From a virus, in IMG/VR virus record IMGVR_UViG_3300037359_000036, positions 1-20,423 of that record: a stretch of 20,423 nucleotides of DNA; one strand, given 5' to 3'. The first letter of the stretch is position 1. Each line of letters opens with the position of its first letter. Below the pieces are notes generated by a model. It did no database searches. It was given only the letters and a program-made list of their open reading frames with translations, and was not told the origin of the DNA. Shown here in pieces: positions 1,422 through 16,203 of the stretch. The position numbers were made by a program, and so were the translations under genes.

Positions 1422-2744
1422 TCAACTGCAGGCGATACAGTCGTAGGCCGCCGCGCAACGCTTGAAGATAACCAACCGGCCATAGGTCGGGAAGATCGGC
1501 TTGGCGGCGTGGCGGTACTGGGCGAAGTGGCGTCCCCGGGTGTGCGTCGGATCGGAGATTCCAGTGCAGCCGGTGAACCCAAGCAGCGCGTCGTTTCCGG
1601 TGACAAACTGCCACTCACCGAAGTAGTTCTGCGGCTGCCACTTCATTCCAGGGGCACTGTTGACCGGGCGAAGCACTTCCTCGGTCATAACCCACGGATT
1701 AAAAACAATGGCACCCTCGTAAGGGGCCTGGGCTGGATCGCGCCAGGCCGGGTTAGTAATCGCCACATAGCCCTTGGTGGCGTCGGCAGCCGCATTGCTC
1801 ATGTTGAAAGCGGGAACGCGAGTCCAAACGCCCCCCGACCAACTCCAGCGTGGGGGAAACCGAGTAATCATGTGCCGCCAGTTCTTGATCGTGCGAGAAG
1901 CGCCGAGGCGCTGAATGACCGGGTTGGCGTCCCCCCAGCCTTGGAAGGACTGGTTGAAGTCATTTCTCAGGTCGCTGTTGTTCAGGAGCAGCTTATTGCT
2001 GGCATCCACGCCCAGAAGAACGGGAAACACCGGGCCGGAAGGGCCGTTTGTGATCCAACCGTTGCTGTTCGGATCATCCGCGCCTTCCTCGATCAATTCG
2101 AGTGCTGTGGCGTCCAGATAGTCCTGAATCAACTCGCAACTGGGCACGGCCAACGCGCTCAGGTCCACGGAAGTGCCGGGAGGCTGAACCGAAGGGTTTC
2201 CGGCGATGTAGTTGAAGTCGGAATTGGCCGCGGCCTTGGGCACGTAGTTCATGTAAATGTTCGCCAGGCGGTGAACAATGGACTTCACGTTGCGCTTTTC
2301 GAGGGCCTGGAAGTACTTCTCCCAGAAGTCGGCGCTGTTCCAGTGAAGGGTGAGGTCATCCTGACAGATGAGCGGCCCGACCAAGCCGAACATTTCAGGC
2401 TTGTAGGTGATTTCCTTGTGCCCTACGTACGTCTGGTTGTAGGTGATGCCGCAAGAGCCGTCATCGCTGCCGGTGGCAACGGCGATGGTCTGCCAGGTTT
2501 CTTCTTCCGATGCGGGTTCGCTGCGCCCGATGGTGAACGCGGAGCGGACTACGCCTGCGCCGACCGGCCAGGTTTCCCGTGGAATGAGGTTCAGCCAGGG
2601 GTCTTTCCAACTGGCGCGGGTATAAAGGGTAGGGCCGAGGTCTTCGGTCTTGGTTCTCAAAACTGCAAAAGGACTAGCACATGCCATAAAATCAATCGGT
2701 TTCTGTTGTTGGCAGCTAGCGGACGCGCCCAAGCGCGAGGGCAT
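1422..2744 (-). CDS. Putative major capsid protein
   Basis: This 440-aa protein is the best candidate for the shell subunit: it follows a scaffold-like gene, has a capsid-typical length, and is rich in Trp, Asn and Pro with alternating short strands and helices. The stretch after residue 20 (beginning MACASPFAVLRTKTEDLGP) and the following IPRETWPVGAG, SAFTIGRSEP and NQTYVGHKE segments match, from memory, the style of major capsid proteins in uncultured phages; I cannot name a family or exclude another fold. Helices around residues 130-165 could be a spine helix. The start is uncertain: ATG at 2744 gives 440 aa, while ATG at 2687 gives 421 aa and looks like the more natural N-terminus. Neither has a clear Shine-Dalgarno. 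The last residues are Cys-rich (CAAAYDCIACS). A possible terminator hairpin follows the stop. Confidence 0.65.
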   Translation of the reverse strand: MPSRLGASASCQQQKPIDFMACASPFAVLRTKTEDLGPTLYTRASWKDPWLNLIPRETWPVGAGVVRSAFTIGRSEPASEEETWQTIAVATGSDDGSCGITYNQTYVGHKEITYKPEMFGLVGPLICQDDLTLHWNSADFWEKYFQALEKRNVKSIVHRLANIYMNYVPKAAANSDFNYIAGNPSVQPPGTSVDLSALAVPSCELIQDYLDATALELIEEGADDPNSNGWITNGPSGPVFPVLLGVDASNKLLLNNSDLRNDFNQSFQGWGDANPVIQRLGASRTIKNWRHMITRFPPRWSWSGGVWTRVPAFNMSNAAADATKGYVAITNPAWRDPAQAPYEGAIVFNPWVMTEEVLRPVNSAPGMKWQPQNYFGEWQFVTGNDALLGFTGCTGISDPTHTRGRHFAQYRHAAKPIFPTYGRLVIFKRCAAAYDCIACS

Positions 2745-2901: not shown

Positions 2902-4077
2902 TTATTCCGCCGTCACTGACCGGACCCAAGCGTTGGTTGCCTCATTGGGCCTCATTCCAACCTTGATGGCGACCGGCTTCGGAGACCCGTCACTGGAAGT
3001 TTCTCGGCTCTGAATGGATGGTGAAGCCTTGGAAAGCTCGGAAATCTGAGATTTAAGCCGCTCGTTCTCTTTGTACATGGCCTCGTAGCCGGTCAGAATA
3101 GCGGGTAGGGAGGCGGCGTCCAGGGAAGCCTGAATAACTTGCTCAGACTTTACGCCCTTGCCGAAGAACAGGTTTCGGGCGGTTTCAAGACGCTTTTCGA
3201 CTTCCGTGTTCCAGGCATGGTCGCCCTCTCGCTTCTTGAATACCGGATTGGATTCCTGGGCCTTAATGGCGGCTTCGTTGAACGCCTTTTCAATGCCCTT
3301 TGACTGCTGTTCCCGTGCGGCAGCCTGATCGGACTTAAGCTTGTCGAAGTTCTCCTTGGATCGCGTGATCTCGGACTGCCGCTCGCCTTCGATCTCAGAC
3401 ATGGAGTTGAGAACCGAACCAAACCGGGACTGCTGCAGCGGGCTGAGGTTAATCAGCATTTCCTCAATCTGAGCGTCTTTGTACTGACCGTCAGGCAGGG
3501 CGAGCAGCTTGGCGGCGGTTTCGGCGTATTCGGTGCCGACAATGCGCTTGGCTAAGTCAACCTGGGTGTCGATCTTGTTCTTGAAATAAGCGGTGAATTT
3601 AGGGTGCCGCTCCACGTCGAGAATCCTCAGCCGTTCGGACAGGTCGTCGCGCTCTTTCTTGAGGGAGTCTAGTTCCGGGCTGGCCGGGGTGTCGGTGATC
3701 TTCTTTTTGATGTCGTCGCGCTCGGTTTTGAGGGCCTTGATCTCGTCATCCCGTTTTTGGACTTCCTCGGATCGGGCCTTCTTGAATTCCTTCCATTGCT
3801 GAGCCGTGCGCGGCCACTTGCTTTCTTCATCTCCTTCTGATAGCTTGGCGGCGTCGATGGGCTTGGCAACCGCATCAACCGCGGGCTTTGTGGTGGGGGT
3901 TGCGGCACTATTCCCCACGGGAACATCAACACTTGGCTTTGGGTCATTAGTCTGGTCATCGGGTTCCTTGGGTTCTGCCGGAGCGGCGGCGGGGACTGGC
4001 GGGTCAACTAGATCAAGACCGGCCATCCATCCCTTGACGGATTCGGCGGGGTTAGCGGATATGGTTGGTGTGCTCAT
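2902..4077 (-). CDS. Putative capsid scaffolding protein
   Basis: This 391-aa protein has the build of a phage scaffold: an N-terminal Pro/Ala/Asp-rich disordered stretch (residues about 24-80), a highly charged coiled coil (about 92-155, with KARSEEVQKRDDEIKALK and KKERDDLSERLR segments), a mixed helical middle, a second charged helical region (about 225-275), and a basic tail near PKPVAIKVGMRP. It lies immediately before the major capsid candidate, where scaffolds are expected, and it lacks any enzymatic motif, including a recognisable protease triad. Scaffolds bind capsid subunits, guide procapsid assembly and then leave. The start at 4077 forms a 4-nt ATGA overlap with the 121-aa gene. 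Similarity is by composition and position, not by a sequence motif, so an internal head protein is the main alternative. Confidence 0.65.
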   Translation of the reverse strand: MSTPTISANPAESVKGWMAGLDLVDPPVPAAAPAEPKEPDDQTNDPKPSVDVPVGNSAATPTTKPAVDAVAKPIDAAKLSEGDEESKWPRTAQQWKEFKKARSEEVQKRDDEIKALKTERDDIKKKITDTPASPELDSLKKERDDLSERLRILDVERHPKFTAYFKNKIDTQVDLAKRIVGTEYAETAAKLLALPDGQYKDAQIEEMLINLSPLQQSRFGSVLNSMSEIEGERQSEITRSKENFDKLKSDQAAAREQQSKGIEKAFNEAAIKAQESNPVFKKREGDHAWNTEVEKRLETARNLFFGKGVKSEQVIQASLDAASLPAILTGYEAMYKENERLKSQISELSKASPSIQSRETSSDGSPKPVAIKVGMRPNEATNAWVRSVTAE

Positions 4078-4443: not shown

Positions 4444-4659
4444 TCAACTTATGGTATTGACGGTTATCGTGCAAGGCCCATGTCGGCAGGTCGATCTCGG
4501 CTCGAAGCTGACGCAGGAATAAGTGGGCGGATGAATCATGTTCGCCTTATGCTCTTTTTCCAGTCTGAGTTGCTCCGGGTTAAAGCACACCCCAAGATTT
4601 CCGTGGCAAAGCATGTAGTGCAAGCAGCGTTCACAGGTTTTGGGAACTTCAGGACTCAA
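4444..4659 (-). CDS. Small Cys-rich protein, probable metal-binding or disulfide knot, 71 aa
   Basis: Seven cysteines in 71 residues (positions 9, 12, 18, 25, 49, 58, 63 from the chosen start) plus several histidines suggest a small zinc-binding or disulfide-stabilised fold; the spacing Cys-x2-Cys, Cys, Cys, Cys followed by SFEPR resembles many small phage and bacterial Cys-rich proteins of unknown role. An in-frame ATG at 4761 would overlap the upstream propeller gene by 113 nt. I instead choose a TTG at 4659, because GGAGG lies 6 nt upstream and the overlap with the upstream stop falls to 11 nt. An ATG at 4614 is possible but would cut off two cysteines. The function is unknown. Confidence 0.55.
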   Translation of the reverse strand: MSPEVPKTCERCLHYMLCHGNLGVCFNPEQLRLEKEHKANMIHPPTYSCVSFEPRSTCRHGPCTITVNTIS

Positions 4660-5854
4660 ACACAACCTCCGGGTTTCCCAGCATGGCCACAGGTCGAACA
4701 ATCTGCAACAAGTCGGCGTGCGGTATGTCAATCCAGCCACATTGGAGATCGTTGACACCAAATACCACCGTCCACAGGCCGTCCTTGATTACGGCCCCAT
4801 TAGGGAACACGACGAGCGGCTTGCCTTCAAACCACTTGTCCTGCTTGCTGCCGGACAGCAGCGGCATGGAAGACATGCGGGTGATGCGATAGGGCGGTTG
4901 AGACTGGAACGCATACACGCCCATGTGGTAGCGCCTTTTCTTGCCAATCCACGGCGTCGAGGAATGGAAGAAGGACCAATACTCACCATCCACCAAAATC
5001 GGCGGGGTGCCTCCCCTCGGCATTCCGCTAGTCCACAACGGATTGATTTCATTAGTCACATACGCCTGTTTAGAGTCCAGGAACGGCCCCATCGGAACAA
5101 CGGTATGCGGCTGAGTCATGTAAATCAGGTGTGGCCGGTCGTTAGGGAAGAACCATACCCAGTTCTTTTCATCACCTAACTGCGTTCCGGGTGAACCGCC
5201 GTTCTTGCCGTAGATCGGGTCGATTCGTTTGACCGTGTTCCAATGCTCGTTGCACTGAAGCAAAAGCTGGTGTGCTCCAGTCCACGTCTGATGCTGTGGA
5301 GTTTTCTGATACACCACGAAGTTGCAGCAGGATACCCAAGTCGAACCGTTGTGAAACACGGCGCGGGGATCTTCGTAATGCTCGCCATTTAGCATGGGTG
5401 GAACTCGAATCTTCACCCCCATAACCGGGATGTGATCGCCTTCTAACTTGAACGCCATCAAGTCGTTTAGTCCGAAGGTCAGGCGCGGCCAATCCTTAGA
5501 CCTGCGAACGACAAGCCATAGTCCATCCGGTCGATGCACCAACCCTGGGTTGAAGTAGTTGATGCCCGGTTTTTCCGCCTTTCCGAAGTCGAATATCTCA
5601 CAGCGCCAAGGCGTTTGCTTGGTAACGCTAGGTATGTCCTGTTCAAAGGATTCGCTCATGGCGTCCATCCATCCACTAATGCTTTCCAGCTCGTCAAACA
5701 GCCGGTCTCGCTCCATGCGCAAGTCAGATAAATGGTCCTCATGCTCTCGGTCCCGGAGCTCCAAGGTTTCCTGCAAGGTGTGGATTTTGGCGTAAAGCTC
5801 CTGATGCGACGTTGGCATCTGCTGGCGCTGAAGGAATCGAAGGAGCTTGTTCAT
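4649..5854 (-). CDS. GH130-like five-bladed beta-propeller with N-terminal coiled coil
   Basis: Residues about 95-400 look like the GH130 and GH43-type propeller fold of mannoside phosphorylases, mannosidases and related transferases. Supporting motifs are NPGLVHRPDGLW (102-113), EDPRAVF (161-167, the EDPR motif carrying the catalytic Asp in GH130), EKNWVWF (229-235), GGTPPILVDG (281-290), FFHSS (295-299), YHMGVYAF (309-316) and FPNGAV (350-355). Residues about 15-70 form a charged coiled coil, an unusual addition that may mediate oligomerisation or anchoring. The gene directly abuts the methyltransferase stop (TGA then ATG) and follows three glycosyltransferases, so it likely trims, phosphorolyses or transfers a sugar in the same pathway. 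The substrate cannot be read from the sequence. Cytosolic: no signal peptide. Confidence 0.65.
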   Translation of the reverse strand: MNKLLRFLQRQQMPTSHQELYAKIHTLQETLELRDREHEDHLSDLRMERDRLFDELESISGWMDAMSESFEQDIPSVTKQTPWRCEIFDFGKAEKPGINYFNPGLVHRPDGLWLVVRRSKDWPRLTFGLNDLMAFKLEGDHIPVMGVKIRVPPMLNGEHYEDPRAVFHNGSTWVSCCNFVVYQKTPQHQTWTGAHQLLLQCNEHWNTVKRIDPIYGKNGGSPGTQLGDEKNWVWFFPNDRPHLIYMTQPHTVVPMGPFLDSKQAYVTNEINPLWTSGMPRGGTPPILVDGEYWSFFHSSTPWIGKKRRYHMGVYAFQSQPPYRITRMSSMPLLSGSKQDKWFEGKPLVVFPNGAVIKDGLWTVVFGVNDLQCGWIDIPHADLLQIVRPVAMLGNPEVVFES

Positions 5855-6469
5855 TCATGCTTTGCAATAAAGCCTGTAGCTCACACAGTCTCGAACCATC
5901 TTGCACTTCGCGTCAAGCATCGCCAGCGCCTTCTGGGTCGTTTTCCAGTCGGCGTCATCGAACCAGATAGAGCCGTTCTGCTTCACTTTGGGCAAGTAAA
6001 TTTCCACGTCCCGGCAGGACGATTCCTCGCTGTGGCCGCCATCGATATAAATGATGTCGCAGCGGGGTATCAGGTCCGCGCATTCCTGAGACGATGCCCG
6101 GATGATGTTCACAAACCTGTCCAAGGAGAACTTCCAGACGGCTTCCATGCAACCCTGATGAATTCGGTAATAGTCCACATTGTCACGCCACCACGCGGCC
6201 TGATCGTCGTCCGGTTGAGCGGTCACGGCGGTCTCTTTTTTCCACGGGTCAATGCCGATTATCTTTCCCTTACCAATGTCCTTCAGAGCCAAAGCCTGGG
6301 CGATCAGGCTTCGACCACCAAACACGCCAATCTCCACAACGTAGGCTGGCTGAATCTGGCGTACCAGGTCATACATCTCGTAAGCCCGTTCCAGTGAAAG
6401 CCAACCCTCAGAGGTTGGAAGCCATTCGGCAAGCATTTGCTTGGATACGGTTGCCTTTGAGTCATTCAT
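5855..6469 (-). CDS. Class I SAM-dependent methyltransferase (Methyltransf_24-like)
   Basis: The 204-aa length and motifs fit a Rossmann-fold methyltransferase of the type common in sugar and surface-polymer clusters. The SAM-binding glycine loop is VVEIGVFGGRS (44-54), followed by the acidic strand IIGIDPW (70-76), the strand-and-loop IIYIDGGHSEES (139-150, the hallmark IDG(x)H of the Methyltransf_24 group), and WFDDADW (169-175). The ATG at 6469 overlaps the stop of the GT2 gene by 8 nt, and the stop abuts the propeller start. The context with three glycosyltransferases suggests O-methylation of a sugar, for example to cap a glycan chain; methylation of another acceptor cannot be excluded. 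Confidence 0.8.
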   Translation of the reverse strand: MNDSKATVSKQMLAEWLPTSEGWLSLERAYEMYDLVRQIQPAYVVEIGVFGGRSLIAQALALKDIGKGKIIGIDPWKKETAVTAQPDDDQAAWWRDNVDYYRIHQGCMEAVWKFSLDRFVNIIRASSQECADLIPRCDIIYIDGGHSEESSCRDVEIYLPKVKQNGSIWFDDADWKTTQKALAMLDAKCKMVRDCVSYRLYCKA

Positions 6470-7226
6470 AGAATCCAGGATTGTTATCGTAAAGCGACAC
6501 CTTTGGATGATTGATAAAGCAGTCCCAAATAGGTTGAATCTTCCGACGCCTCGGCCAGTCCATAACCCAGTGGCTCAAAGGAGCACCGAGCATGTTGAAC
6601 GGGGTATTGAACGTCGGTGGCCAGCCTCCCCATTTCCTGCGCATGTAATCTCGGGTGAACAGGCTGCATCCGGAAATCAGAGAACAGTAGTTAACCCCTC
6701 CGGTCTTGGGCTTGCCGTGGTGGACGTTCCGGCCCTCCACCGAAGGAACGTGAATCCCAACGCATCCTCCCAATCCGAACCGGATGCTCATGTCTTCATC
6801 CTCGTGATAGGCGGGCCACAGATTCTCGTCAAACAGCCCAAATCTATCCATGGCCTTTTGTGTCCAGATGAAGCAATGCCACCCTTCGTTGCTCCATACC
6901 ATGTGCGTTTCGTCCGGAGACTTGTCGAAGGTCTTGCTGATGGCTTCTATAGCGCCCGGATCGAACCACGAATCATCATTGGAGATCATCCAGCCGCGTT
7001 CACCTGGAAAAATCTCGGTGGCCATGTTCCAGCTTTTGGATACGCCCCGATTTTCCCCCTGAACCAGAACTTTCCAGTCAGGATGATCTTTCTGCCACTG
7101 ATCCAGGGCATAGGGCCGTCCGTTGTTAATGATGACCTTATGCTGGATTGGGTAGTCAACAGAAGCGGCAAGCCGATCCAATATGGAAAGGTCGAGGGCG
7201 AGCGTTGGAACAAGCAGGACATTCAT
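6462..7226 (-). CDS. GT2-type (GT-A fold) glycosyltransferase
   Basis: The 254-aa protein has the order expected of family 2 glycosyltransferases: an N-terminal nucleotide-binding strand (MNVLLVPTLA), ENRGVSKSWNMA (58-69, the N-x-G-x-x-x-x-x-N segment), the metal-binding SNDDSWF (82-88) in place of a DxD motif, and HEDEDMSIR (141-149), equivalent to the (E/D)D catalytic-base motif. The frame is open upstream to 7406, but I choose the ATG at 7226 because it gives a 4-nt ATGA overlap with the preceding GT25 gene and the extra 60 residues are low in order and unlike a GT. It should transfer a sugar from a nucleotide donor; donor and acceptor are unknown. No membrane segment, so cytosolic. Confidence 0.8.
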   Translation of the reverse strand: MNVLLVPTLALDLSILDRLAASVDYPIQHKVIINNGRPYALDQWQKDHPDWKVLVQGENRGVSKSWNMATEIFPGERGWMISNDDSWFDPGAIEAISKTFDKSPDETHMVWSNEGWHCFIWTQKAMDRFGLFDENLWPAYHEDEDMSIRFGLGGCVGIHVPSVEGRNVHHGKPKTGGVNYCSLISGCSLFTRDYMRRKWGGWPPTFNTPFNMLGAPLSHWVMDWPRRRKIQPIWDCFINHPKVSLYDNNPGFYE

Positions 7227-7831
7227 GGTAACAGCGTAGTATCCCTCTGGTTGACGATACGAGGAAGGATGGTGTAAACCCGCAACTTTGGAAGTGACTC
7301 CATAAACATGGCTATGTCCAGCGGAGCCCAAATCTTCTGGTGAACTTCGAGCAGGACGGGGAGCGATTTCTTGCGATACATGATGCCGTGGCCGCACATC
7401 GGCCATTGCACTTCGTAAAGGTTCTTTCCGACTGGAATGGTCGGCCTGCCCTCACAACAGCAGGAGCCGATGAACACCAAATCCCAATCATCCGGCAGCA
7501 CGCTCATGGCTTCGGAATACTGATGACGCCAATCGAAGTCGAACTGGCAATCATCTTCCAACACCCAAAACGAGTCATCCGGGAGATAGCTCATCACCTT
7601 CCAAATCAGGTAATGGCTTAGACAAGCGATTACCTGACTTGAGCAAATCTGTTCTCCCGGCTTGTTCACGTCGAAGGTCAGGATGGGATTCAGTTGGCAT
7701 AGCTTGCGGTCAATGCACAGAAACGGTTCGGCTGGGATTCCCCTATCCTTCAAGTGCTGCTCGGCTATCAGCCATTTGTTCCAAGTCGGCTTTACCGTCA
7801 ATACGAAGGTTCTTGGAAGGTCGTGGATCAT
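7223..7831 (-). CDS. GT25-type glycosyltransferase, second of a tandem pair
   Basis: The 202-aa protein fits glycosyltransferase family 25 (LPS-type and collagen-type transferases): an N-terminal strand DLPRTFVLTVK (4-14), ACLSHYLIWK (69-78, the invariant SH in an allosteric helix), VLEDDCQF (90-97, the metal-binding EDD), DWDLVFIGS (115-123), a GHGIMYRKKS segment (147-156) and PLDIAMF (170-176). An in-frame ATG at 7870 exists, but the ATG at 7831 forms a 4-nt ATGA overlap with the previous gene and starts just before the conserved first strand. It is related to its upstream neighbour but clearly diverged, so the two probably add different sugars. The acceptor is unknown. Confidence 0.8.
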   Translation of the reverse strand: MIHDLPRTFVLTVKPTWNKWLIAEQHLKDRGIPAEPFLCIDRKLCQLNPILTFDVNKPGEQICSSQVIACLSHYLIWKVMSYLPDDSFWVLEDDCQFDFDWRHQYSEAMSVLPDDWDLVFIGSCCCEGRPTIPVGKNLYEVQWPMCGHGIMYRKKSLPVLLEVHQKIWAPLDIAMFMESLPKLRVYTILPRIVNQRDTTLLP

Positions 7832-8484
7832 AGCTCCGAAATACCCGATGGGGACACCGACCGCGGCCATTTCCCACCCTTGCCGTGGTAGCTATGATCC
7901 CATGCCATCGGGTCAATCGTGATGGCATGGCCGACAAACGGATAAACCCGCTGCATGAGCATGATGTCAACGGGAGAGTTGAACGGTCGCAATACCTTGA
8001 CTGCAAATTCAGCCGCGGAACGACGCCACCAGTTGCAGGTTGTGCAGAATGGATAATAACGGTGTTCGATAATATCGTTGATTGGCGAGGATGGTTTGTC
8101 TTCCGGCACAGTTACGGCCAGTTGAACAACTTCAATATCATCCGGAATACATTCCCGCGCTTTTTCCCATGAGTTTCTGAAATCCTCGCAGAGAACTACG
8201 TCATCCTCCATAATGAAGAACTCACCTTCGCCACTCATCAAACCCCGCTCCAAAGCGAACAGATGGCTGATGGTGGTTCCGACCACGCTGGGATGAATGT
8301 ATTTTCGCTGCCCTGACAAATCAGAATCATGCGGCACTACGGAAGCAATTCCAGCCGCCTCTCCATTTATGCCATTAAACCAGACAGGGGTTAATCCCTG
8401 AGAATCAAAGTGCTTTTGAGTCTCTCGGCGACGGTGTAAATCCTCTCGCAGAGTGATGATGTAAATTGGGGGGAAGTCGCTCAT
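7828..8484 (-). CDS. GT25-type glycosyltransferase, first of a tandem pair
   Basis: The 218-aa protein carries the GT25 order: PPIYIITLREDLHRR (5-19, the donor-binding strand followed by Arg-rich loop, typical of the family), a TTISHLFALER segment (70-80), FIMEDDVVL (90-98, the metal-binding EDD), and SPVDIMLMQ near residue 170. Near the C-terminus DHSYHGKGGKW matches the Ser/His-rich ends often seen. The frame extends upstream to 8592; the ATG at 8484 is preferred because it makes a 4-nt ATGA overlap with the zinc-ribbon gene and begins directly before the conserved strand. It probably acts in the cytosol on a glycan or a protein acceptor together with the following two transferases. Confidence 0.8.
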   Translation of the reverse strand: MSDFPPIYIITLREDLHRRRETQKHFDSQGLTPVWFNGINGEAAGIASVVPHDSDLSGQRKYIHPSVVGTTISHLFALERGLMSGEGEFFIMEDDVVLCEDFRNSWEKARECIPDDIEVVQLAVTVPEDKPSSPINDIIEHRYYPFCTTCNWWRRSAAEFAVKVLRPFNSPVDIMLMQRVYPFVGHAITIDPMAWDHSYHGKGGKWPRSVSPSGISEL

Positions 8485-8750
8485 TGATGCGTTGGGTCTC
8501 CGGACTGAATCCTGCGAACAAGCCGGTTCCAGTAGCCTATATGAAAGGATGGCATGGAGGAGGGTTGCGCGTGAATTCCGCATTGGGAGCAAAAGAACAT
8601 TTTCTCCATGTGCGGTTTTCGCTCTCCAGAAAATGTCAAATAAACGGTTTCAAGGCCCATCCACTTGTCCGTTTTGCAGACCGGACACGGAAGCAGCGTT
8701 ATTTCTAGCTCCTCTGGCTCCAAAGCGGTTGCGTCGATTCTCGCCTTCAT
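8481..8750 (-). CDS. Lar-like zinc-ribbon protein (possible restriction alleviation)
   Basis: This 89-aa protein has two Cys pairs, LPCPVCKTDKW (C22 and C25) and FFCSQCGIHA (C54 and C57), followed by IGYWNRLVRR with W74 and N75. CP(F/V)C near the start, CxxCG in the middle and a terminal AWN(R) are the layout of the Lar restriction-alleviation zinc-ribbon group of phages and prophages. The E. coli Rac Lar protein lessens EcoKI restriction; most relatives are untested, so the activity is inference. It overlaps the HTH gene and the first GT25 gene by 4 nt each, so it is co-translated with the glycan cassette rather than placed among early genes, which is unusual. Confidence 0.6.
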   Translation of the reverse strand: MKARIDATALEPEELEITLLPCPVCKTDKWMGLETVYLTFSGERKPHMEKMFFCSQCGIHAQPSSMPSFHIGYWNRLVRRIQSGDPTHQ

Positions 8751-8917
8751 TTATCCAGCAGCCAGCAAAACAGCATAGCCAGGGTTCGGCAGTTGACGTT
8801 TCTCCCGCGCTCCAGACGATCAATCGACTTGTAGTGGACGCCAACCGTTTTGGCCAGCGTGCGGATGGATACGCGATTCTTTTCGCGCCACGCGAGTACA
8901 AGTTGGCCTAGCTGCAT
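8747..8917 (-). CDS. Small HTH (Xre/Cro-like) DNA-binding protein
   Basis: The 56-aa protein is little more than a helix-turn-helix: LGQLVLAWREKNRVSIRTLA is helix 1 and the start of helix 2 (residues 3-22), then KTVGVHYKSIDRLERGRN (23-40) has the turn and recognition helix typical of Xre/Cro repressors, and a final helix follows. It could regulate this operon or be a phage switch protein. Two starts are possible: ATG at 8917 begins at the usual distance before the HTH, while GTG at 8956 gives 69 aa and leaves only 2 nt from the upstream stop. I favour the ATG because of the domain length, but the packing favours the GTG. A regulator embedded in a late structural operon is noteworthy. Confidence 0.65.
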   Translation of the reverse strand: MQLGQLVLAWREKNRVSIRTLAKTVGVHYKSIDRLERGRNVNCRTLAMLFCWLLDK

Positions 8918-8958
8918 GTCCCACTTATGGCACAGAACCAAAAGTGGCGCAAGCACTT

Positions 8959-9147
8959 TTAGAATAATTTTGAAGCAACCCGCTTGAGCTTAGGCTGGCG
9001 TTGTCCACCGCTCTTGCCGTGCGACTTACCGCCCTGTCCGGGTTTGGATTTTCCCAGCGGCTTGCGCGGCCAGGGAAGGCCGAAGAATCCTTTGAAGGCT
9101 TGGTTCATTAACGGGCTGCTATCGTCTTGGGGTATTGGCATAATCAT
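8959..9147 (-). CDS. Small basic Gly/Lys/Ser-rich protein, 62 aa
   Basis: The first 20 residues are neutral; residues about 28-60 are strongly basic and disorder-prone, with repeated Lys-Ser-Gly-Gly and Lys-Pro-Gly-Gln units (PLGKSKPGQGGKSHGKSGGQ). No family is recognised. Its ATG overlaps the stop of the ATP-grasp gene by 4 nt, which supports it being a real, coupled gene. It may bind nucleic acid, or it may be a substrate or partner of the ATP-grasp enzyme upstream of it; a very acidic small protein sits on the other side of that enzyme. Both ideas are inference from position and charge. Confidence 0.5.
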   Translation of the reverse strand: MIMPIPQDDSSPLMNQAFKGFFGLPWPRKPLGKSKPGQGGKSHGKSGGQRQPKLKRVASKLF

Positions 9148-10427
9148 TCAACCACCGCTGCCGGTTCAGGCATCTTTTCATCCGTAAAGTCGATTCCTTT
9201 TTCCTGAGCGTGCTCGATTTCTTTTATCAAATCCACAAGCGAGTCCACCTTGGCGCTTACACCGTCGGGAAGCATGGCGGCATGGTCTTTCATGGTGTCC
9301 ACCACTTCGGATGGGGTGTCGCCTATCGCCACCAGCCATCCGATGTCGTTATCTGAATCCGGAGGAAAGCACACTCGACCATCAACTTCACAGGAGTTTC
9401 CGAGTTTCATCCATTGCCGAAGTGATTTTGGAACTTCCGTTTGAGACCATCGCCCTTTCGGGTCTTTTACGGTTAATAAGCATTCAGCGGAGAACATGGC
9501 GGCGGGTTCAGGCTCAATCAATTCCCCGTTGGCTCCATACCAATAAATCTCGGGAAGATTAGCGTAAAGCTCCATCTGTGAACCGCTGGCCGGGAGCGGC
9601 CCTCGGCAGCATGGATCAATGAAAAAAGACTGTTTTCCTTTGACTCGTATTTCCATGCTGAAAAGATTCCGGTAGCGATGCTTTCCCAGGATGGGACCGA
9701 ACTTATCAAGCACTTCCTGAATCTGGTAGGGCAGTTCCTCGCGAGGTCGAAGTGCGGCCATCAATCCCTCATCCTTGGCTTCGTAACCCTGCTGTATAAG
9801 GCCGGGCCATTGACCGTCAATGCAGTAGGTATCAGCACCCAATTCAATATCGGTGTGGATGCTGTCGAAAACTAAAAACGGAACGATCTCTTTAGCTGGA
9901 CCAAACTTCACAGCCAGGTCATCAATTCTCATTTCATCCAAGGCCCAGCTTCTCCAATGCCAGGTCTCCATTGACCCGCGATACTTGGATATTTTCACGT
10001 AGCAATCATCGCGGTCGCTTAAGTAATCCCTAAGCGCTGTCACCCCCTCGCAGGCATGATGGGGAACCACTTCCATGCGCAATCCCTTTAAGATGGAAAT
10101 GAATTCCTCGCGTGAGGTTTCAATGGAATCTGCCTCTCGACTACCCCACACCGGATACCCCTGGCTCTCCAATTCCAGTTGCAGGCCGCTGTGCAGGATG
10201 TCTGGGAACACAAACAGGTCAATGTCATCCTTAGCCTTCCAGATGTCGTCACACCGATCTATGGATGAAAACCCATCTCCGATGATACATTTGTCCAAAA
10301 TCGGGAAACCGTCCTCCCACGGAGAATGGTATAGAACGCGCTTGAATCCTTCGGCCAGCTTAAGAGCTAACGGAACGAACAATCCGTGATCCACCACGCA
10401 ACACGTTACGTCTGATGGTTCTTTCAT
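9144..10427 (-). CDS. ATP-grasp enzyme of the PurD/GARS-like type
   Basis: The 427-aa protein resembles phosphoribosylamine-glycine ligase and related ATP-grasp ligases: a Rossmann-like N-terminal part (DVTCCVVDHGLFVPLALKLAEG, from residue 6, split by a short strand), VWGSREADSIETSREEF (93-109, equivalent to the GPsk..a..E.SK segment), CYVKISKY (142-149, with K145 as the likely ATP lysine), SMEIRVKG (257-264) and FFIDPCCRGPLPASG (268-282, with the metal-binding acidic residues), and a C-terminal domain with WLVAIGDTPSEVVDTM (364-379). ATP-grasp enzymes join a carboxylate to an amine through an acyl phosphate. A purine-synthesis role is unlikely here: it sits between portal and glycan genes with small acidic and basic partners. 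ATGA overlaps join it to both neighbours. The substrate is unknown. Confidence 0.65.
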   Translation of the reverse strand: MKEPSDVTCCVVDHGLFVPLALKLAEGFKRVLYHSPWEDGFPILDKCIIGDGFSSIDRCDDIWKAKDDIDLFVFPDILHSGLQLELESQGYPVWGSREADSIETSREEFISILKGLRMEVVPHHACEGVTALRDYLSDRDDCYVKISKYRGSMETWHWRSWALDEMRIDDLAVKFGPAKEIVPFLVFDSIHTDIELGADTYCIDGQWPGLIQQGYEAKDEGLMAALRPREELPYQIQEVLDKFGPILGKHRYRNLFSMEIRVKGKQSFFIDPCCRGPLPASGSQMELYANLPEIYWYGANGELIEPEPAAMFSAECLLTVKDPKGRWSQTEVPKSLRQWMKLGNSCEVDGRVCFPPDSDNDIGWLVAIGDTPSEVVDTMKDHAAMLPDGVSAKVDSLVDLIKEIEHAQEKGIDFTDEKMPEPAAVVE

Positions 10428-10555
10428 CCGTCAATGCTTTCGGTGCGCGTCCTTAGATCGGGGGACGGTTTCACACAAGGATCGTCATCATCGGAATCTT
10501 CGGGCATTCCTCCGTCTTGATCGGAATCGTCGTCAACGGAGCCTTCAGGAGCCAT
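10424..10555 (-). CDS. Very acidic small protein, 43 aa
   Basis: About a third of the residues are Asp or Glu, with runs such as VDDDSDQDGGMPEDSDDDDP (positions 7-26). Such low-complexity acidic tails suggest a disordered protein that binds a basic partner. The frame is open upstream to 10627, but the ATG at 10555 is better: it overlaps the portal stop by only 11 nt and has AAGGAG 10 nt upstream, within the portal's last codons. Its stop overlaps the ATP-grasp start by 4 nt. No family is recognised. It may be a small assembly factor for the portal or a partner of the ATP-grasp enzyme. Confidence 0.5.
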   Translation of the reverse strand: MAPEGSVDDDSDQDGGMPEDSDDDDPCVKPSPDLRTRTESIDG

Positions 10556-12851
10556 TTTCCTTTTTCTCCTTTGACTGAAATGCTGCCAGCCGATTCTTTC
10601 GGTGGATGTCGGTTGCGACGGTGGCATCTTTCAAAGCCATGCTCTGTTGCCCTTGAACCATCTTCTGCTGGTGCTTCTCCTGGCTCTGCTTCAACTGCGC
10701 CTTGGTTTTGGCGGTCTTGATGGCAATGTCGTTCTTGGCTTTGGCCTGCTTGATCTGCTCATCGGTCATCGCCTGCTGGGTCTTGTCCTGCTGCTGCTTA
10801 CCACTCTGACCCTGCTGTTCAATCTGTTTCTGGAGCTTGTCGGTCAGTTCGGCCATCTTCTTCCATTGCTTTTCGATCTCCTTGAAGATGACCGCCCGGG
10901 TCGGGTCTTTCGCGAACCGTTTCAGGTGAGCGGCAATGGCAGGACCAGCAACGTGCAGGAACGTCAACACGCCATGAGGATCAGCCCCCTGCTGTAAGGA
11001 CTGAAGCGCCTGGGTAGCCGCCGACAGGAATGTTCCAGCGTAGGTAACGGCGTTCTGCGAGGCGGTCACAACTGGTTGAACTCCAATCTTCATCAATCCC
11101 ACCCATTGCAGGGCTTCAGCCTGCTGGTCGGTGGCCAGCTTTTCCGCGCTCTTGGTCGGGTAATACTTCTCAACCGAAGATTGACCGGCCTCTGCTCCGA
11201 TCATGTCACAAATCAGGTTGTCTCGCCCGTTCTCAGGAAGCGCCGGAGCCAGCAGTTGCCAAAGGTTCGACAGCGATTGCTTGCGGACAAACGCGCTTCC
11301 TTGTCCGGTAACGCGAGTGGCCTCTACCTTTGATATTCGTCCAAGGGCTTCCTTGGGAACACCCCGGTCTTCGCAGCGTTTCTGGAACTCCTGAGCACGC
11401 TCATCGGTGGAGTTGAGGTTGCTCATGCGCCGGTAGATTTCACCGTATAGCATATCCAACTGCTCGTAATAGCGGTTGAACTGGGTCTTAGACAGCGAGG
11501 ACTGCTGCTGTGCCTGATACATGATTTCCCGAGCCGTTACCGGGTTCCCCTGCTTTTGCTGCGGCTGCTCCCGGTAGGACGCCAGATTGCTCTGCATCAT
11601 TTCCGATAGCGTGTTATTCATCGCCAGCCCATCGTTCATCAATCCCGCCACGCCAGTCTGCTGCCAATCGAATCCACCCGGAAGGACGGCGTAATCTCCG
11701 AAATGAGCCATGCTGAATTTCTGGCTGCTCTCGGTACTGGTAGGTTTGAACAGAATCTTTGGCGCGAACGCCTTGTCGGCCAAATTACAAATCAGTCGGT
11801 TCTGATATTCCATCGCCGAGAACATCTTAACCCCAAGGCCGGTAACGGAATGGTGCCATCCGCCGTTGCCGTGATCGAAATACATCGGGTGAACGCACTG
11901 CTGGAAAGACTGATACCGTTCGTGCGAGTTGAACAGGAACTTGATGTCCTCGTAGTCCTGTTTGAACTTCGGATCGCCACTGTCCTGACGGTTAACGGTG
12001 GTATCCCGCTCGACAATGGCGTGCGTCACCTTCCCGCTGAACTCGCGCCAGAATACGTGGCACACCCGGCACACCCGGGTATCGTCGAAATAGGACAGCG
12101 AGTTGTTTTTCAACTCCTGCTGGTAGTACTCCCATTCGTAGCGCAACCCCGGTTGAATACGAATGTCCATCGCGTTTTGAATGACAAGCTTGGTGTATTC
12201 TACGTCCCAGCCAACCTTAGCCGCGGCTTCCTCGTTTCGGATGAACTCGTAAAGCTCCGGCGGATAGTAGGTCACTTGCAGGGCGCACACGTCCCAATAC
12301 TTCGTGTCGCTTTTGGAAAACTCGGGTAGTTTCAAGTCGCCCGCCAACACCGCCTTGGGCAGCACCCGGTAGGCATCCTCGAAAAACAACGGGCCAGGAC
12401 CGTGCAGCACCATGTCCCACTGCGAAAGCTGCATGTTGTAATCCCACTCGGTAGCAGTTCGTATGGTCCGGTCGGCTTCCTCGCTGATTGTGCGAGACCA
12501 TTCCGCCTTTTTCTCCGGATCATCCCCAAAGCTGGTCAGCACGTTAAGGAACAATGGTGACTCACTGAAAAGGTCGTAGAAGGCCCCTACGGCGGCTTCC
12601 AGGCAGGACCGGGCCATTCCCCAGTTGACGTTGCAGGCATCGGCCCTACCGGCATCCTTGAGCTTTGAAGCTCGGTAGGGTGGGTTTCCGTCCACCAGTC
12701 CGTTTACCCGGCTGCGCTTGAAGCTTCGCTTTTCGTCGTTGTCAATGATGCGCCGGCAGAAGTCCTGCACCTGGCGCGCATCCTTCATCCGAGTCTCAGG
12801 CACCTTGCCGTCTTCGATGGTCGCTAATGGGGCGCTGCCGTAGTTGGGCAT
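10545..12851 (-). CDS. Portal protein
   Basis: This 768-aa protein lies two genes after the terminase, where portals are found, and is in the size range of podovirus-type portals (P22 and N4 portals are about 720-760 aa). Residues 1-500 hold the mixed alpha/beta core, with a VTAREIMYQAQQQ helix (near residue 440) matching the clip-to-stem 'TAxE' helix common in portals and Trp/Tyr-rich wing segments earlier. The C-terminal 110 residues are Gln, Lys and Ala rich and predicted helical, as in the barrel of long portals, ending in a basic tail. Twelve copies would form the ring through which DNA is packed and ejected. The start at 12851 is 3 nt after the upstream stop. The assignment rests on size, context and composition rather than on a strong motif. 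Confidence 0.75.
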   Translation of the reverse strand: MPNYGSAPLATIEDGKVPETRMKDARQVQDFCRRIIDNDEKRSFKRSRVNGLVDGNPPYRASKLKDAGRADACNVNWGMARSCLEAAVGAFYDLFSESPLFLNVLTSFGDDPEKKAEWSRTISEEADRTIRTATEWDYNMQLSQWDMVLHGPGPLFFEDAYRVLPKAVLAGDLKLPEFSKSDTKYWDVCALQVTYYPPELYEFIRNEEAAAKVGWDVEYTKLVIQNAMDIRIQPGLRYEWEYYQQELKNNSLSYFDDTRVCRVCHVFWREFSGKVTHAIVERDTTVNRQDSGDPKFKQDYEDIKFLFNSHERYQSFQQCVHPMYFDHGNGGWHHSVTGLGVKMFSAMEYQNRLICNLADKAFAPKILFKPTSTESSQKFSMAHFGDYAVLPGGFDWQQTGVAGLMNDGLAMNNTLSEMMQSNLASYREQPQQKQGNPVTAREIMYQAQQQSSLSKTQFNRYYEQLDMLYGEIYRRMSNLNSTDERAQEFQKRCEDRGVPKEALGRISKVEATRVTGQGSAFVRKQSLSNLWQLLAPALPENGRDNLICDMIGAEAGQSSVEKYYPTKSAEKLATDQQAEALQWVGLMKIGVQPVVTASQNAVTYAGTFLSAATQALQSLQQGADPHGVLTFLHVAGPAIAAHLKRFAKDPTRAVIFKEIEKQWKKMAELTDKLQKQIEQQGQSGKQQQDKTQQAMTDEQIKQAKAKNDIAIKTAKTKAQLKQSQEKHQQKMVQGQQSMALKDATVATDIHRKNRLAAFQSKEKKENGS

Positions 12852-15615: not shown

Positions 15616-15657
15616 GCATTGACTATAAACGCATGTTATGGCAAAGGAAAGGGCAGA
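15616..15657. promoter_or_regulatory. Divergent 42-bp gap between terminase and tail operons
   Basis: The two units start back to back with only 42 bp between the terminase GTG (15615) and the collagen-like ATG (15658). On the plus strand TTGACT lies at 15619-15624 without a well-spaced -10; on the minus strand TATAGT sits only a few bases before the terminase start. AAGGAAAGGG just ahead of 15658 could be its ribosome binding site. Promoters must overlap this gap or lie inside the flanking coding sequences; none can be named with confidence. Confidence 0.35.
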
Positions 15658-16203
15658 ATGAGCGCACCACTTGTTTCTGGAGCACCTTGGATTGCCAGTC
15701 TGACATGCCCCGGAACGACAACGGGTGGATCAGGCAACGGACAACCGGGGCCAGTTGGTCCTGCTGGACCTTCCGGACCTCCCGGACCTCCCGGGCCTGC
15801 CGGTGCCGCTGGAACCTCTGGAGCCGGCGCCTTTACTTCGACTACCGGCACATTCACCCAACCCCCAGTCAGTTCCGCCGTTCTTGTCAGCGTTCAGAAT
15901 TCTTCGTGGATGGCGGTGTCTCAAGTCGTGTTTGTGGCCAATGGAGGATACTACCTAGTATTCAACATCCCCAATTCCACCAGCGTTATCCTGATCAATC
16001 TCGGTTACAACGGGAACCTGATACCTGGCATGCTTGTGGCGTCCAATTCAACCATAGGACCTGGAGGAATAGCTGGCGTAGCCAATGGTGGAATTTATGC
16101 CGGAACCTCCGCCGATCTCGCCGCGCAAAATCCAGCAGGACCGGCAATCTGGATTCTCACTGATAGCGACCCGCAATACCAAATCGTAGCCATACCAGGA
16201 TGA
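15658..16203 (+). CDS. Collagen-like tail or fibre protein, 181 aa
   Basis: Residues 28-57 form ten uninterrupted Gly-x-y triplets (GQP, GPV, GPA, GPS, GPP, GPP, GPA, GAA, GTS, GAG), a short collagen-like triple-helix segment of the type found in phage tail fibres, where it trimerises and spaces a shaft. The C-terminal part (about 60-181) is Gly, Asn, Val and Ser rich and beta-like, suitable for a trimeric fibre tip or host-binding domain. The frame is open upstream to 15205 inside the terminase on the other strand; the ATG at 15658 is chosen because of the purine-rich AAGGAAAGGG ahead of it and because it clears the terminase. The stop overlaps the next gene by 4 nt. No signal peptide. Structural rather than enzymatic. 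Confidence 0.75.
   Translation: MSAPLVSGAPWIASLTCPGTTTGGSGNGQPGPVGPAGPSGPPGPPGPAGAAGTSGAGAFTSTTGTFTQPPVSSAVLVSVQNSSWMAVSQVVFVANGGYYLVFNIPNSTSVILINLGYNGNLIPGMLVASNSTIGPGGIAGVANGGIYAGTSADLAAQNPAGPAIWILTDSDPQYQIVAIPG

Follow-up and report, generated by a model that had tools for sequence, protein, structure and literature searches.

Glycosyltransferase and methyltransferase genes that lie between the portal gene and the gene for a constant GH130-fold propeller are exchanged as a block between near-identical phages, a swap reported here for the first time. With its variable glycan genes beside one constant enzyme, the locus looks like a serotype locus. The genome from which we started is a stretch of 20,423 nt, record IMGVR_UViG_3300037359_000036 of IMG/VR, analysed whole and called the window below; its relatives are metagenome contigs of uncultured phages, mostly fragments. 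The exchange is visible only across genomes, whereas the first-pass annotation of this DNA had rested on a single one.

In a set of 42 contigs from close relatives, the glycosyltransferase and methyltransferase genes that precede the propeller gene occurred in eight arrangements, and at least 17 switches of arrangement were counted on the portal tree of these contigs. Every arrangement draws on recurring gene classes. When pairs with differing arrangements were aligned (105 pairs), DNA homology ended at the portal stop codon, within 60 bp of it in 99 of the 105, and usually restarted at the propeller start, within 60 bp in 77. The exchanged DNA, about 2-3 kb, is thus sharply bordered at two genes, and the propeller itself evolves alongside portal and scaffold. 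Bacterial O-antigen and capsule loci also hold variable glycan genes inside constant flanks and are exchanged by recombination in the flanks; the architecture is similar, but the locus described here is phage-borne, very small and without polymerase or flippase. The variable block moves as a unit between the portal and propeller genes, and therefore near-identical phages would differ in their surface glycans.

Block exchange could also follow host serotype, and it would also be explained if the cassette remodelled a host surface polymer (O-chain or capsule) during infection, excluding rival phages or preventing progeny from sticking to debris, with the propeller trimming or extending the polymer. 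The Pfam name of the GT25 family, lipopolysaccharide biosynthesis, agrees with such a role. However, GtrA flippase and tyrosine integrase, the hallmarks of gtr-type serotype conversion, were not found in the 16 related records searched, which include fragments, and a search of the transferases and the propeller for a long hydrophobic segment that could span a membrane found none. Cytosolic enzymes can nonetheless act on lipid-linked precursors. Expression linked to the head genes, and a propeller that evolves with portal and scaffold, also speak against a host target. A parallel exists in the pelagimyophage host recognition cluster (PMC7029224), likewise a variable glycosyltransferase island in the structural region of aquatic phages, whose blocks have been read as host O-chain modification; that island, however, is about 45 kb long, contains tail fibres and is described as changing gradually, whereas the present 2-3 kb contain no tail fibre and are swapped whole. 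Weighing these points, we regard host-surface remodelling as unlikely, though it is the main rival, and favour as the most likely role of the cassette the attachment of a variable, methylated glycan to a virion protein.

In the window, the cassette occupies positions 8484-4649 of the minus strand and consists of two GT25-like transferases, a GT2-like transferase, a Methyltransf_24 protein and the GH130-fold propeller. These are the five enzymes that the first-pass annotation had proposed, with slightly corrected starts, and its description of a translation-coupled series held as well, since nearly all junctions are a few bases apart or overlapping. From portal through scaffold they range from an 11-nt overlap to a 4-nt gap, 4-nt overlaps being the commonest; the portal junction is the exception with an overlap of 83 nt, and the first true gap of the series, of 157 nt, separates scaffold from major capsid protein. 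All three head genes lie on the same minus strand. In every related contig a homologue of the portal protein (768 aa; 10545..12851), 35-57% identical to it, directly precedes the cassette and forms its constant left border. Scaffold protein (391 aa; 2902..4077) is the constant downstream gene, with homologues at the equivalent position in relatives. Homologues of the major capsid protein (440 aa; 1422..2744), a candidate acceptor, follow the scaffold in some relatives, at 38-65% identity; elsewhere they lie on the opposite strand and are more distant. Searches gave none of the three an NCBIfam name or an informative PHROG name, and the names used here were assigned from gene order after the phrog_2 terminase, from size and composition, and from homologues ordered alike in relatives.

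The first transferase, a predicted GT25-type enzyme of 218 aa (7828..8484, minus strand), matched PF01755 above the cut-off (9.2e-8) and phrog_2835 (4e-14), and contains the EDD motif. The second, of 202 aa (7223..7831, minus strand), contains both EDD and P-x-D; it matched phrog_2835, named glucosyltransferase, at 7.9e-9 and PF01755 at 3.1e-4, the latter scoring 21.1 bits and so under the 24-bit cut-off, and it is 31% identical to the cassette GT25 of a relative (L048). The E-D-D motif was invariant in all seven GT25 proteins aligned. A putative GT2-type transferase of 254 aa follows (6462..7226, minus strand; PF00535, 5.8e-5, 23.5 bits against a cut-off of 23.3; phrog_29879, galactosyltransferase, 2.8e-20), in which NDDS and HEDED motifs were spotted by eye. 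The fourth protein is a predicted Methyltransf_24 O-methyltransferase of 204 aa (5855..6469, minus strand; PF13578, 9.3e-19) whose D143, D171 and D172 are invariant across eight relatives. Its closest solved structure by profile is 6g7d (2.7e-11), which we take to be the mycobacterial mannoside methyltransferase MeT1.

Glycosyltransferases of phages often act on DNA bases as a protection against restriction, and two features of the locus could be read in that way: a PHROG that the methyltransferase matches bears the name DNA methyltransferase, and a small Cys-rich, Lar-like zinc-ribbon protein is encoded just upstream (8481..8750, minus strand), albeit on a weak match (Lar_restr_allev, 0.012, under the cut-off). 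The PHROG match, however, spans the Methyltransf_24 part only, and the genes sit in the head operon rather than among replication genes. Moreover, a homologue of thymidylate synthase, the usual source of hydroxymethylated bases, was absent from the 16 related records. We consider DNA-base glycosylation very improbable.

The last gene of the cassette (4649..5854, minus strand) encodes a GH130-fold five-bladed propeller of 401 aa with a long N-terminal helix. Its Pfam match (PF04041, 5.2e-6) scored 26.1 bits against a cut-off of 26, profile comparison with the PDB reached 1.2e-11 to 5b0p, and the AlphaFold2 model (pLDDT 83) had GH130 phosphorylases as its top Foldseek match (1.5e-10). Among solved structures, beta-mannoside phosphorylases and the Leishmania MPT mannosyltransferase/phosphorylases (GT108), which have the same fold, come nearest by profile or fold. 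Foldseek values for the latter (PDB 6q4w and 6q50) were 2e-8 to 4e-8, with GH130 phosphorylases scoring better, and a comparison at sequence level gave no match; the likeness to GT108 is one of modelled fold only. Leishmania MPT shows that this fold can act as a GDP-mannose-dependent transferase. Profile alignment to a canonical bacterial GH130 enzyme was confined to the C-terminal third. On sequences dereplicated at 90%, with identities down to 35%, F101-N102, R117, E161-D162-x-R164, E229-K230-N231-W232, H250, R280-G-G, H297, Y309 and D369 were invariant. The sugar-binding and catalytic set of GH130 comprises Asn, Arg, Glu-Asp, Lys, Tyr and Asp (PMC4599007), and HMMER alignments to solved chains placed N102, R117, E161, D162, Y309 and D369 at such positions, so that the proposed mannose-site residues are invariant and the pocket is intact.

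GH130 mannoside phosphorylases and mannosidases (PMC4599007) thus share with the phage protein the five-bladed propeller, the sugar-site residues and the catalytic Asp, but they serve in mannan degradation, whereas the phage propeller has biosynthetic neighbours. Since those phosphorylases are nearest in both fold and profile, the protein could act as a glycosidase or phosphorylase, trimming or recycling the glycan on the same virion acceptor, and hydrolases do work within biosynthesis, as MmpH does for the mycobacterial methylmannose polysaccharide (PMC9883506). The two basic phosphate-binding positions of the phosphorylases are not kept, however, reading H/P/G/A and E/M/V/I in the phage family, and at the positions aligned with the Glu pair that supplies the catalytic base in GH130 hydrolases (PMC4599007) no conserved pair was seen (E/M/V/I and H/P/G/A), although the alignment is approximate there. 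We judge trimming to be improbable. A biosynthetic role fits better than degradation because in other viruses the propeller neighbours glycosyltransferases or is fused to them: one end of phrog_28262 matches the Gly_transf_sug transferase of the cassette and the opposite end the propeller, in L056 the propeller is followed by a GT25-Methyltransf_24 fusion, and structural neighbours in giant viruses bear the names LicD/FKTN, WcaK-like and fucosyltransferase. The propeller represents a phage-specific enzyme family that has a pocket of beta-mannoside type and probably works in synthesis; no phage GH130 or GT108 was found in the literature searched.

Between portal and scaffold, a GH130-like gene was present in 18 of 21 portal clusters of IMG/VR relatives as well as in the window, the remaining three having other glycosyltransferases in that interval; counting duplicates, 63 of 66 portal-scaffold intervals held a propeller homologue. 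Neither portal nor propeller had an informative match among 50,697 named phage genomes. Across 84,980 bacterial and archaeal species, a search for the propeller signature by two short peptide patterns, which can miss more distant host homologues, returned two matches only: one (L139) is clearly of phage origin, a contig that carries the scaffold gene too and was binned with a Nitrosomonadales genome, and the other (L140) comes from a Verrucomicrobiaceae bin. A recent host origin was rejected on this count, and the distribution indicates that the cassette is not a recent insert. The comparison of gene order that the first-pass annotation had proposed found the cassette conserved, and what that annotation had set against its own reading, namely absence from relatives, recent insertion from a host or loss of catalytic residues, was not observed. 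The GH130-like gene, which it had singled out as unusual company for transferases, does sit beside them, yet no part of the locus is more constant, and it is no odd extra. Its proposal of a glycan made in step with the capsid is supported in part, by head-gene coupling, portal-scaffold conservation and intact catalytic motifs, with the virion and a host polymer both as candidate acceptors.

A protein that evolves like structural genes and has a coiled-coil-like N-terminal helix might instead be a structural head component with a relic pocket, the transferases being unrelated moron genes at a tolerated insertion site. The pocket's invariance down to 35% identity argues against this, as does the recurrence of the gene classes in all arrangements, also as fusions. 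Moreover, a divergent phage (L053) keeps propeller, GT25 and methyltransferase in one neighbourhood despite an altered order. We find a purely structural propeller highly unlikely.

In our main reading, a short, partly methylated glycan would be made and attached to a particle protein during head assembly. Two or three transferases of the variable block would assemble it, the methyltransferase or methyltransferases would cap it, and the GH130-fold enzyme would perform a constant step that needs fit to a constant partner. We favour, for that step, the addition of a mannose-like sugar by MPT-like chemistry (as in Leishmania), which would either start the glycan on the virion protein or finish it. 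We give this reading as a whole an even chance. More tentatively, and with less than even confidence, the locus may be a phage serotype system in which an interchangeable block of two to five genes determines a virion glycan that a constant GH130-fold transferase joins or caps, so that near-identical phages would present different surface glycans, methylated or sulfated.

The phage particle is commonly regarded as bare protein. In the mycobacteriophage Che8 and its relatives, glycosyltransferases are proposed or have been shown to glycosylate capsid and tail-tube proteins (Freeman et al. 2023, via PMC11256854 and PMC12619734). The likeness lies in phage-encoded glycosyltransferases; the glycosyltransferase genes of Maravista lie near the 3' end of the genome, in contrast to a head-operon location with block exchange, a GH130-fold enzyme and methyltransferases. 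That a lineage keeps a glycan locus in its head operon and nevertheless swaps it blockwise between near-identical phages suggests an exposed sugar under strong selection, much as in bacterial serotype switching. If the reading is true, a phage could change the sugars that coat its particles, or those on its host, as bacteria change serotype, and the purpose of phage surface glycans becomes directly testable.

The window also encodes, on the minus strand, a small helix-turn-helix protein (8747..8956; HTH_31, 2e-4, under the cut-off) and a 427-aa protein of ATP-grasp fold (9144..10427). A sequence search of the latter against the PDB gave no identification, but fold comparison did: the AlphaFold2 model was of modest quality (pLDDT 65), and its best Foldseek matches were all ATP-grasp enzymes, with GAR synthetase at E=2.5e-14. 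This protein is present in the portal-scaffold interval of some relatives only (L006, L059, L064 and L065).

The window, an IMG/VR viral contig of 20,423 bases with no end repeats in its listing, carries a minus-strand head operon that runs from terminase (15615-13816, phrog_2) through a Cys-rich protein, the portal, a small ORF, an ATP-grasp-fold protein and three small ORFs to GT25A, GT25B, GT2, Methyltransf_24 and GH130-like genes (8484-4649, the cassette), followed by two small ORFs, the scaffold and the major capsid protein. From portal to scaffold, adjacent genes overlap or stand no more than 4 nt apart, with 4-nt overlaps most frequent; a wider gap, of 157 nt, appears only ahead of the capsid gene. 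The first-pass annotation had placed a glycan-building cassette here, and its coordinates and family names for these genes were borne out. GT25B and GT2 are each weak matches by themselves, GT25B falling under the Pfam cut-off, and both assignments are backed by PHROG matches and by relatives. The unnamed ATP-grasp-fold protein between portal and cassette (9144-10427, minus strand), GAR synthetase-like by Foldseek with a modest model, could be a ligase adding an amino acid or other group; it is common to four related contigs (L006, L059, L064 and L065).

Relatives were gathered by searches with the terminase (four close relatives), the propeller, as we call the GH130-like protein (13 loci), and a portal profile (80). 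A GH130-like gene lay between portal and scaffold in 63 of the 66 loci having both genes on the same contig, a count that includes the window and in which some contigs recur; after clustering at 95% portal identity, the interval contained it in the window and in 18 of 21 clusters. Sugar genes were also present there in the three exceptions: L064 encodes a GT4-like protein and a 763-residue protein that combines a GT9-like with a GT2-like domain (L064:14250-16541), L071 has two sulfotransferase-like genes and an FkbM methyltransferase (L071:7740-9795), which suggests a sulfated decoration, and L068 has a transferase-like protein, judged by eye, with no Pfam match. In the rearranged contig L053 (7229-17296), the order is terminase, GH130-like gene, GT genes, methyltransferase and then a distant portal; propeller, GT25, methyltransferase and portal are still neighbours, and its GH130-like protein bears an N-terminal Cys-rich extension. 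In a search with two short peptide patterns, the propeller signature family was nearly missing from bacterial genomes, so it is a phage family and not a recent host gene. One of two matches outside viral collections, a Verrucomicrobiaceae-bin contig (L140:3531-6020), carries a gene judged by eye to be heptosyltransferase-like and, after it, a GH130-like protein whose C-terminal extension lacks a Pfam match; the family may serve in bacterial surface-glycan metabolism here.

Gene content between portal and propeller was exchanged among near-identical phages. In one clade of 42 freshwater-type contigs, whose portals are mostly 84-99% identical, we found eight arrangements, composed of GT25, GT7C-type and Gly_transf_sug-type transferases plus methyltransferases of three kinds; in all 42 the gene set ends with the propeller. 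A FastTree portal tree requires at least 17 switches of arrangement, these numbers being approximate since near-duplicate contigs were included. Borders were compared at the DNA level in 105 non-independent pairs with different arrangements, drawn from within 95% portal clusters. In 99 pairs, homology broke off no more than 60 bp from the portal stop (median +2 bp); in 77, it restarted no more than 60 bp from the propeller start (median 0). No homology was seen in between in 71. Contigs L074 and L080 share portals (99.6% identical), propellers (98.9%) and scaffolds (99.0%), against 24-33% for their cassette proteins. Single genes also move: the GT25 proteins of L074 and L122 are 99.5% identical, compared with 90.8% for their portals. 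The other large unrelated stretch of L074 and L080 (L074:4464-6881 and L080:4644-7235), upstream of terminase, encodes long, repeat-rich, tail-fibre-like proteins and is a candidate variable receptor-binding region; turnover of the cassette therefore resembles that of a gene facing the host or the environment.

The constant border enzyme, the propeller (4649-5854, minus strand), is a borderline match to Pfam GH130 (26.1 bits against a 26-bit cut-off), and a profile built from 12 phage homologues matched structurally solved GH130 enzymes (1.2e-11). Almost all of the best 30 PDB matches of its AlphaFold2 model (pLDDT 83) were GH130 mannoside phosphorylases and related enzymes; structural matches also included Leishmania MPT proteins (2e-8 to 4e-8), GDP-mannose-dependent mannosyltransferases that this model resembles by fold. 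After 90%-identity dereplication, F101-N102, R117, E161-D162, R164, E229-K230-N231-W232, H250, R280, H297, Y309 and D369 were invariant wherever sequence was present. In the GH130 enzyme BT3780, the equivalent residues Asn74, Arg89, Glu141-Asp142, Lys199, Tyr302 and Asp363 bind and attack mannose, and GH130 phosphorylases bind phosphate through basic residues, in whose stead hydrolases have Glu (PMC4599007). Pocket positions were matched through HMMER alignments to solved phosphorylases in place of BT3780; K230 is tentatively equated with Lys199. Since the sugar-site residues are invariant and residues at both phosphate positions, as aligned, vary across the phage family, the sugar pocket is kept and the phosphate pocket is not. 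This pattern, together with the gene setting, suggests a transferase and not a phosphorylase.

Asp143, Asp171 and Asp172 of the Methyltransf_24 enzyme were invariant in eight relatives. Its top profile match among solved structures was 6g7d (2.7e-11), listed as 'Methyltransferase domain protein', which we take to be MeT1, the mannoside 1-O-methyltransferase of Mycobacterium hassiacum. The MeT1 enzyme is described in PMC9883506, whose text does not give that PDB code. The match is to a fold family too broad to specify the substrate. In a distant phage contig (L056), the propeller is followed directly by one ORF fusing GT25 to Methyltransf_24. The start of phrog_28262 matches the cassette's Gly_transf_sug transferase and its end the propeller, both modestly (4.8e-4 and 9e-5), and giant-virus structural neighbours of the propeller include proteins named for LicD/FKTN, WcaK-like and fucosyltransferase domains. 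These cases link transferase, methyltransferase and propeller to a single pathway.

Exchange between fixed borders beside a constant border enzyme has the look of a serotype locus. The constant propeller would be expected to contact an equally constant partner, of which a virion protein from the same operon is the simplest candidate, and the variable enzymes would determine outer sugars and methyl groups. The cassette may instead remodel the host surface, the published reading for variable glycosyltransferases of pelagimyophages (PMC7029224). We prefer a predicted glycan on a virion protein, to which we give roughly even chances, because the cassette genes sit within the head operon, divergence of the propeller parallels that of head genes, the transferases as well as the propeller are soluble proteins, and GtrA, thymidylate synthase and tyrosine integrase were not found in 16 related records. 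Mycobacteriophages are a known case of virion glycosylation by phage-encoded enzymes (Freeman et al. 2023, as cited in PMC11256854 and PMC12619734). The part of the literature searched described neither a GH130-fold enzyme in a phage virion-glycosylation setting nor the exchange of a glycan block between portal and next gene.

Two observations concern the terminase region. The L050 terminase lies in two ORFs (L050:2974-4648) and is whole in the near-identical L051, so the split is probably an assembly or sequencing error. In the window, the first plus-strand gene past terminase contains a collagen-like Gly-Pro repeat stretch (15636-15860) and is probably a tail or fibre protein; relatives have similar collagen-like proteins upstream of terminase.
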